Origin: Leptolyngbya sp. SIO1E4
GTDB taxonomy: Bacteria > Cyanobacteriota > Cyanobacteriia > Phormidesmidales > Phormidesmidaceae
NCBI GenBank assembly: GCA_010672825.2
Contig: JAAHFU020000005.1
Coordinates: forward strand, 186,001 to 250,000
Length of the DNA stretch: 64,000 nt
Direction: 5' to 3'
The notes under the pieces: generated by a model
What the model was told of the DNA's origin: nothing
What the model saw: the letters and a program-made list of their open reading frames with translations, nothing else
Database searches by the model: none
Part shown: positions 11,899-14,521 of the stretch, in pieces
How the letters are laid out: every line of letters starts with the position of its first letter
Numbering within the stretch: the stretch's first letter is position 1
Position numbers and translations under genes: made by a program

Positions 11899-12393
11899 TC
11901 AGGCATCTCCAAAGCGTTTCCGAATATGCAGGCAGTTGCGCTGGTCGGCTGTTTTGGAATACTCAACAATATCAGCCACCCGATACATGATCCTCAACCC
12001 CCGCCCCCCTTCTGAGTCAGGTGTTGTCGTCTGTAGCTTGCGCTTCAGCATAGCTTGAAAATCAAAGCCTGGCCCCCTGTCCCAAATTTTCATATCGAGA
12101 TAGTCAGGGGTGACAGTCATTTCAATTTCGATCGGGGTCTCTGGCGGCAACCCAGCATGGGCATGGCGCACAACGTTTGTAAAGGCCTCGATCAAAGCCA
12201 GCTGGCATTGCAGCCAAATTTCCTGCGGAATTGGCAAGTCGTGAAAGCCATCAAACCAAGACAGAACGCCCTTAAGGGCTTCCGGGTCTGTTTGTGCTTC
12301 ATAACTGTTCTGCTTCAGAATGCCCAAGGATTCAATCACAGGTGAAGATAAGGATCTCTCACATAGTATCGAGAGGTTACAGGTCGAGTTCAA
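11899..12393 (-). CDS. Anti-sigma regulatory factor (RsbW-like ATP-binding kinase)
   Basis: 164 aa. It is a stand-alone GHKL ATPase: N box EAFTNVVRHAHAG (Asn73), G1 box WDRGPGFDF (105-112) and G2 box GGRGLRIM (129-136). Such proteins phosphorylate an anti-sigma-factor antagonist and hold a partner regulator; cyanobacteria carry many. No partner gene is adjacent. The longest start is TTG 12391-12393; a shorter GTG start about 18 codons in is possible. Confidence 0.82.
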   Translation of the reverse strand: MNSTCNLSILCERSLSSPVIESLGILKQNSYEAQTDPEALKGVLSWFDGFHDLPIPQEIWLQCQLALIEAFTNVVRHAHAGLPPETPIEIEMTVTPDYLDMKIWDRGPGFDFQAMLKRKLQTTTPDSEGGRGLRIMYRVADIVEYSKTADQRNCLHIRKRFGDA

Positions 12394-12492
12394 AAAAGAT
12401 GCAGCAAACTCAACAAAAGCTGCCCAAAGTCGAGGGATATTACAACTTCTTCAAAGAAAATTGTCATGCAATACCAACAAAAGGGCGATCGC

Positions 12493-12521
12493 TTGACAAA
12501 AAATCTCCGGAACCGTATATT
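12493..12521 (+). promoter_or_regulatory. Sigma70-type promoter for the riboswitch-DUF4278 transcript
   Basis: TTGACA at 12493-12498, an exact 17-bp spacer, and TATATT at 12516-12521. The expected start near 12528 puts the riboswitch at the very 5' end of the RNA. Confidence 0.7.
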
Positions 12522-12539
12522 TAGATACAGAAAGCAAAA

Positions 12540-12604
12540 CGTTCATCCTTCGCATTTCTTGCACAAGGACGGAAGTAGGGAATTGACTCCCGAAGGAACG
12601 CGCC
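12540..12604 (+). ncRNA. Glutamine riboswitch (downstream-peptide/glnA class)
   Basis: The sequence has the class layout: 5' strand CGTTCATCC, a loop, GGACGGAAGTAGGG, a second arm GGG...CCC closed over AATTGACT, then CGAAGGAACGCG closing on CGTTC. CGTTC pairs with GAACG and ATCC with GGAC/GGA, leaving the conserved purine-rich core GGAAGTA and GAAGGAACG. This class binds L-glutamine and in cyanobacteria precedes short ORFs or glnA-regulating genes. Here it lies 47 bases before a 56-codon gene, downstream of a consensus promoter. Motif recognised by eye. Confidence 0.85.
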
Positions 12605-12650
12605 TCTTTCACTTCACCAACAAACCCGTTGTACATTTGAGGCGAGAACT

Positions 12651-12821
12651 ATGAGCTTACGTTATCGCGGTGCCGACTACGAGCCCACTTCAACCAACTT
12701 TGAATTTACTGAAGAAGTCATTGGCCACTATCGTGGTGCAGTTGTAACCCGCCGGGTTGCAAAGAACGCTCCACACCAAAACCTTCATGGTCTGACTTAT
12801 CGCGGTGCCAAAGTACGCTAG
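12651..12821 (+). CDS. DUF4278 small protein
   Basis: 56 aa, too short for most gene finders. It contains three copies of a Y-R-G-A pattern: LRYRGADY at the start, GHYRGAVV in the middle and LTYRGAKVR at the end, typical of DUF4278. GAGG lies 8 bases before ATG 12651. It is the sole gene behind the glutamine riboswitch, so its expression probably follows nitrogen status, and the transcript ends at a strong terminator. Biochemical function is unknown. Confidence 0.85.
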   Translation: MSLRYRGADYEPTSTNFEFTEEVIGHYRGAVVTRRVAKNAPHQNLHGLTYRGAKVR

Positions 12822-12871
12822 CACCTGATGAATTCGGCAATATAGTCTTTTGACAATTGTCAAAGGTTTTG

Positions 12872-12900
12872 AAAGGCATCCAATCGGGTGCCTTTTTTTT
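12872..12900 (+). terminator. Rho-independent terminator of the DUF4278 transcript
   Basis: AAAGGCATCC, tetraloop AATC, GGGTGCCTTT: a 10-bp stem with one G-U pair, followed by eight consecutive T in all. It closes a compact promoter-riboswitch-ORF-terminator unit. Confidence 0.9.
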
Positions 12901-13129
12901 ACCTTGCTTTTGGATAGATTCTTGTTAATGTGGGAGGGCAATGACACAGTAAGCCTCACACTTTACATCTGGCAATTTCAGCTAACAGTATCCAGCAAAA
13001 CTCATTTGTGTCAGGGCCTCCAATCCTTCACGCAGATACCCTTATCTGTTAAGCCATGCTTGAGTTGCTAGGCTGCCAGGGCAAAGCATAATGGGGCAGC
13101 ATAACTGTAATGGGGAGTGCCGCTAGGTT

Positions 13130-14521
13130 ATGGCCATAGCATCAGGGCTGTTCTTGGTATCCAGTACGATCGCAGGCTTTGGGCTAGGCTGGGCACTGCA
13201 TAAGTTGTGGGGTCAACCCTCCCCTTCTATAAAAATTACCTCCCGGCTTGACCGAGATCATCCAGACCTTGTCTATAAAGATACCGAGCGATCTATCCAG
13301 TCATCTACCGGTCATTTTCCCACTCCAGACAAACCGTCACACACGCCTCGTCCCTCTGCTTACGCCCTGCTGCAGCAAGCTCCCGTAGGCTATTTAGAAG
13401 TTGATAAAGAGAACCAGCTTTTATGGAGCAATCCCCTTGCTTGCCAAATGTTGGGGATTCCCTACGATGACGCCGACAACCCCACCCCCCCTAGGCTCTT
13501 ATTAGAGCTTGTGCGATCCTATGAGTTAGATCAGCTCATTGAAATGACCCGTCAAACTAAGACATCTGTTCAAAAAGACTGGGTCTTGAATTTTGTTTCT
13601 CTAGATCCTATCAACCCCCATGAAGGGGTTGCTGCCCCTCTCAGAGGCCATGGAATTCCGCTAGACAATAACCATGTGGGCGTCTTCCTAGAAAATCGTC
13701 AGGAAGCACAAACTCTGCTGCAACAGCGCAATCGATGGACTTCAGATGTTGCCCACGAACTCAAAACACCACTCACCTCTATTCGCTTAGTGGCAGAAAC
13801 TTTGAGAAGTCGCGTTGATCCAACGCTAACCACCTGGCTAGATCGACTGCTCAACGAAATTCTACGTCTCAGTAACTTAGTTGAAGACTTGCTCAACTTA
13901 AGCCGTCTGGAGCGTAGCGGCGGTACTGGACTAACGCTTAAACCAGTTGAGCTTCCGCACTTACTGTTTGCTGCTTGGCAAAGCTTAGAACCTTTAGCAG
14001 AAGTCAAACAGGTGGAGATTGCTTATGAAGGCCCGACTGAGCTCATCGTTAATCTTGACGAAACCTTGATACACCGGGTTCTCATCAACCTGATGGACAA
14101 TGCCATCAAATACAGCCCTCAAAAAGGCACCATTTTTGTTCGAGCCGGATTTTGTCAAACAGAGAAAGCAGTTACCCAAGAGGGGCAGCCGACTCAATTG
14201 CTCTTTATTGATATTGTTGATGAGGGGTCAGGCTTCCTTGAAAACGATCTCCCCTACATCTTTGATCGCTTTTACCGGGCAGACCCCTCTCGTTCACGTG
14301 TCTTTACTGGCATAGAGTCCGACTTGCCTGATCCTGAAAAAATCGTAGGTCGATCTCGGAATAGCGGAACAGGCCTGGGATTAGCGATCGTGCAGCAAAT
14401 CACTGAAGCTCATGGAGGCACCACCCAAGCCCGGAATCATCCTGAAACTGGGGGCGGATGGCTCACCATCTCTATTCCAGTAACCCCTGTCTCCCTCGAA
14501 AATATGTCACTGACTCAATAA
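13130..14521 (+). CDS. sphS: Sensor histidine kinase, SphS/PhoR-like
   Basis: 463 aa. One N-terminal membrane segment (about 5-27), a variable linker, a PAS-like domain (about 77-190, from YALLQQAPVGYLEVD), HisKA with SDVAHELKTPLTS (His209), and HATPase with NLMDNAIKYSP, a DEGSGF G1 box and GTGLGLAIV. This layout and the HisKA wording resemble the cyanobacterial phosphate-sensing kinase SphS. No response regulator gene is adjacent, so the phosphate role is an inference and the symbol provisional. A short insert lies between the F box and G2 box (SRSRVFTGIESDLPDPEKIV). Confidence 0.8.
   Translation: MAIASGLFLVSSTIAGFGLGWALHKLWGQPSPSIKITSRLDRDHPDLVYKDTERSIQSSTGHFPTPDKPSHTPRPSAYALLQQAPVGYLEVDKENQLLWSNPLACQMLGIPYDDADNPTPPRLLLELVRSYELDQLIEMTRQTKTSVQKDWVLNFVSLDPINPHEGVAAPLRGHGIPLDNNHVGVFLENRQEAQTLLQQRNRWTSDVAHELKTPLTSIRLVAETLRSRVDPTLTTWLDRLLNEILRLSNLVEDLLNLSRLERSGGTGLTLKPVELPHLLFAAWQSLEPLAEVKQVEIAYEGPTELIVNLDETLIHRVLINLMDNAIKYSPQKGTIFVRAGFCQTEKAVTQEGQPTQLLFIDIVDEGSGFLENDLPYIFDRFYRADPSRSRVFTGIESDLPDPEKIVGRSRNSGTGLGLAIVQQITEAHGGTTQARNHPETGGGWLTISIPVTPVSLENMSLTQ

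Follow-up and report, generated by a model that had tools for sequence, protein, structure and literature searches.

A conserved, putatively doubly controlled unit for a stand-alone DUF4278 protein in Leptolyngbya sp. SIO1E4

A short unit in the filamentous cyanobacterium Leptolyngbya sp. SIO1E4, lying within the 64,000-nucleotide stretch of DNA analysed here (the window), combines an NtcA-type box, a glutamine riboswitch and a gene for a 56-aa DUF4278 protein. Judged by sequence, the whole unit is real and conserved, and it is a new example of an already known kind, comparable to Prochlorococcus PMM1846. In the best model, to which we give a probability of roughly 0.75, the unit would be repressed by NtcA, switched on in translation by glutamine, and its product would be a free DUF4278 module within the brake programme of nitrogen assimilation. 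The regulatory part of this model is strongly supported by the conserved predicted elements, and it looks as if the 56-aa protein would be made only when both nitrogen and glutamine are plentiful. Cyanobacteria hold back nitrogen assimilation by small proteins, and the presence of DUF4278, in the order of this strain, as the common N-terminus of a glutamine synthetase (GS) brake and of long PirA, mostly together with glutamine riboswitches and NtcA-type boxes, makes the role of stand-alone DUF4278 testable. The DUF4278-PirA fusions, the arrays with one riboswitch per cistron and the hydrophobic micropeptides described below are more worth following than the unit itself.

Layout of the unit

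An earlier sequence-only reading had placed a consensus promoter with a 17-bp spacer, a riboswitch, a small DUF4278 ORF and a terminator within 410 bp (12493–12900); this extent proved correct, and the promoter, the ORF and the terminator were all recovered where claimed (Table 1). The NtcA-type palindrome and the anti-SD/SD pair are additions to that reading. The unit is better described, on the predicted elements, as doubly controlled, by an NtcA-type box as well as by the riboswitch.

Table 1. Features of the DUF4278 unit and its 3' neighbour (window coordinates)
Feature	Position	Strand	Basis
Sigma-70-type promoter, TTGACA-17-TATATT	12493–12521	+	11/12 consensus positions
NtcA-type palindrome GTATATTTAGATAC, over the -10 element (repressor position)	12515–12528	+	predicted; conserved placement
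Type 1 (glnA) glutamine riboswitch aptamer	12538–12604	+	RF01739, 58.1 bits
Anti-SD CGCCTC, immediately 3' of P1	12601–12606	+	complementarity to SD
SD region GAGGCG, 6 nt ahead of ATG	12639–12644	+	complementary to anti-SD
Stand-alone DUF4278 gene, 56 aa, three YRG motifs	12651–12821	+	ORF and PF14105
Intrinsic terminator: stem-loop 12871–12896, then T-run	12871–12900	+	terminator scan
PAS-HisKA-HATPase sensor kinase gene, conserved 3' neighbour, separate transcript likely	13130–14521	+	domain matches, PAS just under cut-off

Overall, 1.5 kb of sequence has 4 promoter-like sites where shuffles give 1.8, and the exact hexamer pair with its spacing, a pattern modelled on this very site, is found a single time in the 64 kb, with 0.01 expected. 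Terminator-like sites in general are no more frequent than in shuffles (2 against 1.4 expected). Matches to Phe_leader and ctRNA over the terminator are below their gathering scores and were taken as chance. Carriage by a phage or plasmid was rejected, phage and plasmid records giving no match at E 0.01; among viral contigs there were 26 pattern matches, none of them confirmed.

Riboswitch and expression platform

The sequence-only reading had named the riboswitch 'downstream-peptide/glnA' and proposed an Rfam covariance search with a score below threshold as the contrary outcome. The glnA model (RF01739, type 1) is matched over its full length (1–53 of 53) at 58.1 bits (gathering score 35; E 3.2e-10), which excludes a chance or degenerate riboswitch, whereas Downstream-peptide (RF01704, type 2) is not among the matches up to E 0.5. 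Only the glnA half of the name is thus retained, and the aptamer is predicted to be a glutamine-responsive one of the type 1 class.

For comparison we used 132 distinct riboswitch contexts from 162 loci, taken from the best search matches and from 60 regions hand-picked among the matches listed, which are therefore not a census. Their class labels are regex-based; L127 is misparsed, L085 and L103, labelled 'other', resemble micropeptide variants, and L145, which lies at the edge of its contig, could be a long gene cut short. Anti-SD and SD can form at least 6 Watson–Crick pairs in 91 of the 132 contexts, compared with 2.1 after shuffling of the SD region, while the remaining 41 fall short. Within the stand-alone DUF4278 class such pairing is found in 46 of 48 contexts, the exceptions being both units of L162; in L139 and L140 the two sides have changed in a compensating way (CGTTCCT/AGGAACG). 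The mean pairing run of 5.69 is above all 300 random re-pairings of leaders (mean 5.49, maximum 5.62), by a margin that is narrow because most leaders share one sequence.

In the window leader, the helix between the complementary anti-SD and SD is present in both the MFE and the centroid structures, with a pair probability of about 0.56 in the unconstrained fold, and the leader overall does not exceed shuffled sequences in stability (z 0.54). The bound state was approximated by enforcing P1 and keeping the four bases after it unpaired, which by design already disrupts some of the helix; the SD is then freed in its 5' half (about 0.8) and paired elsewhere in its 3' half. A platform able to hide the SD is thus present as a predicted and conserved helix, the switching itself being only modelled, and the fold and proxy results together make a translational glutamine-ON switch plausible, not proven.

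NtcA-type palindrome

NtcA recognizes the consensus GTAN8TAC, and NtcA is encoded in the SIO1E4 genome (385 bits). The window palindrome, GTATATTTAGATAC, fits this consensus and spans the -10 hexamer, i.e. it lies over the core promoter. By itself it is not beyond chance: bare GTAN8TAC has 10 matches in the 64 kb against 5.94 expected, and 10 of 100 shuffles reach that number. Its meaning comes instead from a position that is conserved across riboswitch contexts. A perfect GTAN8TAC ends 5–23 nt before P1 in 98 of the 132 contexts and is absent there in 34; with one mismatch permitted, the count rises to 113 of 132. Single-base shuffling of the upstream 45 nt, repeated 200 times on the 131 contexts that have 100 nt or more of upstream sequence, gives a perfect site in 0.66 contexts on average and in 4 at most. 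By class, the palindrome is found in 39 of 48 stand-alone DUF4278, 42 of 49 long DUF4278, 14 of 29 micropeptide and 3 of 6 other contexts, and the nine stand-alone cases without it comprise seven internal units of arrays, L019 (one mismatch) and L145. Since 56 of the 98 palindromes are overlapped by a TANNNT hexamer and 37 reach 9/12 promoter matches, a -10 box within the palindrome is common, not universal.

Proposed mechanism

Under nitrogen limitation, NtcA with 2-oxoglutarate would occupy the palindrome over the -10 element and block transcription. When ammonium is plentiful and 2-oxoglutarate low, NtcA would depart, and an mRNA of ~370 nt, as estimated from the promoter and the terminator, would be made. 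Without glutamine, CGCCUC 3' of P1 would pair with the SD GAGGCG and keep translation off. In glutamine aptamer structures the folded aptamer engages the tail 3' of P1, and with glutamine it would take up this tail here as well, freeing the SD for translation of the 56-aa protein. The net logic would be an AND of two nitrogen-excess signals, NtcA release and high glutamine; gifB has been described with the same AND (PMC6316151).

The DUF4278 protein and its orthologues

The small, arginine-rich window protein matches PF14105 (DUF4278) with 47.8 bits against a curated cut-off of 25.3, and 19 residues are invariant across 37 aligned proteins. Up to E 0.1 it matches no NCBIfam family, both the IF7A domain and PirA (NF050139) being absent, and it has no sequence match among solved structures up to E 1. 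An AlphaFold model built with 37 rows has a mean pLDDT of 73.1 and a low pTM of 0.35, with a more confident hairpin at about residues 19–37; Foldseek found nothing in the PDB that matches it at E 0.001. The window product is, as predicted from these comparisons, a free DUF4278 module without an effector domain.

A scan of named genomes identified 36 orthologous loci from 30 assembly accessions, including those of Leptolyngbya, Nodosilinea, Halomicronema, Oscillatoria CS-180, Phormidium and cyanobacterial MAGs; the stand-alone DUF4278/riboswitch units of Leptolyngbya, Nodosilinea, Halomicronema and their relatives are orthologues of the window unit with 47–79% identity. Both riboswitch and palindrome are present in 33 of the 34 loci with at least 150 nt upstream. 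The exception, L198, comes from a MAG that is labelled as PVC group. Over the aligned range its protein does not differ from the one of Nodosilinea P-1105 (L196), so the contig is probably misbinned. A profile of the subfamily matches 78 of 242 class genomes at E 1e-6, and matches of at least 79 bits are confined to the own family, the best outside it reaching 66.6 bits.

DUF4278 fusions in the glutamine regulon

The SIO1E4 genome has five glutamine riboswitches and nine DUF4278 genes, and at all five riboswitches a GTAN8TAC ends 9–15 nt before the aptamer. They precede the window gene, two DUF4278-IF7 fusions of the IF17 type (150 aa, NF052599 86.3 bits against 70; 168 aa, 73.1 bits against 70 in the genome search), one DUF4278-PirA fusion and one 38-aa hydrophobic micropeptide. 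The DUF4278-PirA gene (L005, C1:1675178-1675588; 137 aa, NF050139 53.5 against 50) has its glutamine riboswitch accompanied by an NtcA-type box and is the sole PirA match in the genome. IF7 without DUF4278 is encoded elsewhere in the genome (67 aa, C2:2027752, 99.2 bits). Five further DUF4278 genes (C1:599991, C5:315052, C6:29543, C4:294094 and C4:294725) have no glutamine riboswitch match; GTATCACTTGATAC begins 75 nt upstream of the one at C1:599991.

Glutamine synthetase is held back by IF17-type proteins, and PII-activated arginine synthesis by PirA. Each of the 49 long DUF4278 proteins scanned behind riboswitches in the own order matches either IF7A (36) or PirA (13) at E 0.001, and phmmer with their own segments gives the same split with none unassigned. 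PirA is matched in 58 of 63 order genomes, in 55 above the cut-off. Among the 30 best-scoring PirA loci, three near contig ends are not readable (L199, L207 and L226), and in 27 of the 27 readable ones a DUF4278 motif, recognized as a motif rather than by Pfam, lies in frame upstream of PirA; a riboswitch is present in 26 of these, L201 being the exception, and a perfect palindrome within 260 nt in all but L201 and L228 (25). For the class as a whole, 66 contexts were drawn from 65 loci, of which 40 were hand-picked among the matches listed, and these yielded 65 proteins after exclusion of L240, which has no ORF; 54 match PF14105, 26 IF7A and 10 PirA at E 0.001. Short IF7-like proteins without DUF4278, recognized by eye, lie immediately behind glutamine riboswitches at L231 and L243.

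DUF4278 is thus an N-terminal module that two nitrogen brakes have in common, and the window gene encodes this module in its free form. In the case of extended PirA, Bolay 2021 could not exclude a false annotation and called its function elusive (PMC8092223); the conserved fusions argue against misannotation for the own order. No report of DUF4278-PirA fusions was found in the titles and abstract openings of the literature searched, and the primary riboswitch paper (Klahn 2018) may mention either these fusions or the micropeptides.

Hydrophobic micropeptides and other riboswitch outputs

The fifth riboswitch of the SIO1E4 genome (L004, C8:84667-84780, minus strand) precedes the 38-aa hydrophobic micropeptide, which is not a DUF4278 protein. 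Altogether 29 of the 132 contexts lead to hydrophobic peptides of 38–53 aa, which are probably single-span membrane peptides. Homologues at E 4e-4 or better occur in 49 of 63 order genomes, and in the class a match at E 0.001 is present in 38 of 242, with a stop codon inside the matched range in some of them; three examples searched against Pfam and NCBIfam had no match. Glutamine riboswitches also precede an 89-aa protein at L148, L149 and L152 in the own family and at L234 in another, the latter alike by eye, and one example of it had no Pfam or NCBIfam match. Outside the own order, a family of soluble-looking proteins of 49–51 aa, alike by eye, is found behind glutamine riboswitches at L239, L247 and L292.

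Function of the free module

The sequence-only reading called the role of the DUF4278 peptide unsettled, and this holds for stand-alone DUF4278 proteins in the review literature (PMC6316151). According to the same source, the N-terminus of IF17 is DUF4278, which is dispensable for GS inhibition and stabilises the protein. The likeliest role of the free module, tentatively proposed from these two properties and from the shared sequence and held at clearly less than even odds, is therefore that it modulates the stability, turnover or partnering of the fusion brakes. A broader and more doubtful reading is that DUF4278 could be the portable marker of a single brake programme gated by glutamine and NtcA, in which the IF7 fusion would brake GS, the PirA fusion would brake PII-dependent arginine synthesis, the free protein would set the lifetime or partnering of both, and the micropeptides would form a further arm without DUF4278. 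If this were true, one small protein would tune several brakes at once.

Nearly as likely as a module role, though on the doubtful side itself, is that the free DUF4278 protein is an IF-like enzyme inhibitor in its own right and not a partner of the fusions. It is small and arginine-rich, its controls are of the same kind as those reported for gifB, and the idea has been raised for Prochlorococcus PMM1846 (PMC6316151). However, the DUF4278 part of IF17 is not needed for GS inhibition (PMC6316151), and the window protein lacks any NCBIfam match to E 0.1, whereas 49 of 49 long DUF4278 proteins scanned in the order match IF7A or PirA.

It is unlikely that the peptide acts on the adjoining PAS histidine kinase and thereby ties glutamine status to a PhoR/PnpS-like two-component signal. 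In 25 of the 36 orthologous loci the DUF4278 gene is followed, in the same orientation, by a homologue of the window's kinase gene with 53–63% identity to it, but this homologue is missing from the available flank in the other 11 (2 of which have <150 nt downstream), and within one order such a neighbourhood may be inertia. Moreover, a terminator separates both genes in the window, and the kinase, which resembles PnpS/PhoR, is below the cut-offs of all 25 NCBIfam families among the matches listed.

The tandem arrays of the stand-alone gene bear on how the riboswitch acts. Four relatives' genomes hold two or three tandem units (three each at L167, L164 and L048, two at L162), whereas the window holds one. 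Each cistron of these arrays has its own riboswitch, a palindrome within 45 nt is found at the first unit only, and the gap from stop codon to next aptamer is 2–21 nt in seven of seven internal units. Such short gaps leave little space for an internal promoter or terminator, which suggests a single mRNA whose cistrons each have a translational switch of their own. The arrays thus argue for translational over termination control and offer a clean natural setting for the study of the former. A looser case is L287, where two riboswitch genes are 223 nt apart and the second has no palindrome within 45 nt. It is very improbable that the riboswitch controls transcription termination: a terminator does exist, but it is the sole terminator-like site on the plus strand in 12000–13500 and comes after the gene, and both the anti-SD/SD pairing and the riboswitch per cistron speak for translation. 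Least probable of all is a regulatory or dual-function RNA with an incidental ORF, as might be suspected from the shortness of the unit and from picocyanobacterial yfr6, first predicted as a noncoding RNA (PMC2864571), given the 19 invariant residues in 37 proteins, the curated domain and the SD placed 6 nt ahead of the ATG.

Comparison with known systems

The gifB (IF17) unit of Synechocystis PCC 6803 also combines a type 1 riboswitch, NtcA repression and an N-terminal DUF4278 (PMC6316151), but its product carries an IF7-type C-terminal domain that the window protein lacks. A counterpart in kind is PMM1846 of Prochlorococcus MED4, likewise a stand-alone DUF4278 protein (7 kDa) with a glutamine riboswitch and an NtcA motif (PMC6316151), so that the class is known, as the sequence-only reading had it; picocyanobacterial aptamers are described as type 2 (Downstream-peptide) in the same source, whereas the window aptamer is type 1. 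The pirA gene (ssr0692) of Synechocystis likewise encodes a small NtcA-repressed regulator of nitrogen excess (PMC8092223). Its domain is missing from the window protein but, in the SIO1E4 genome, is fused behind DUF4278 at another locus.
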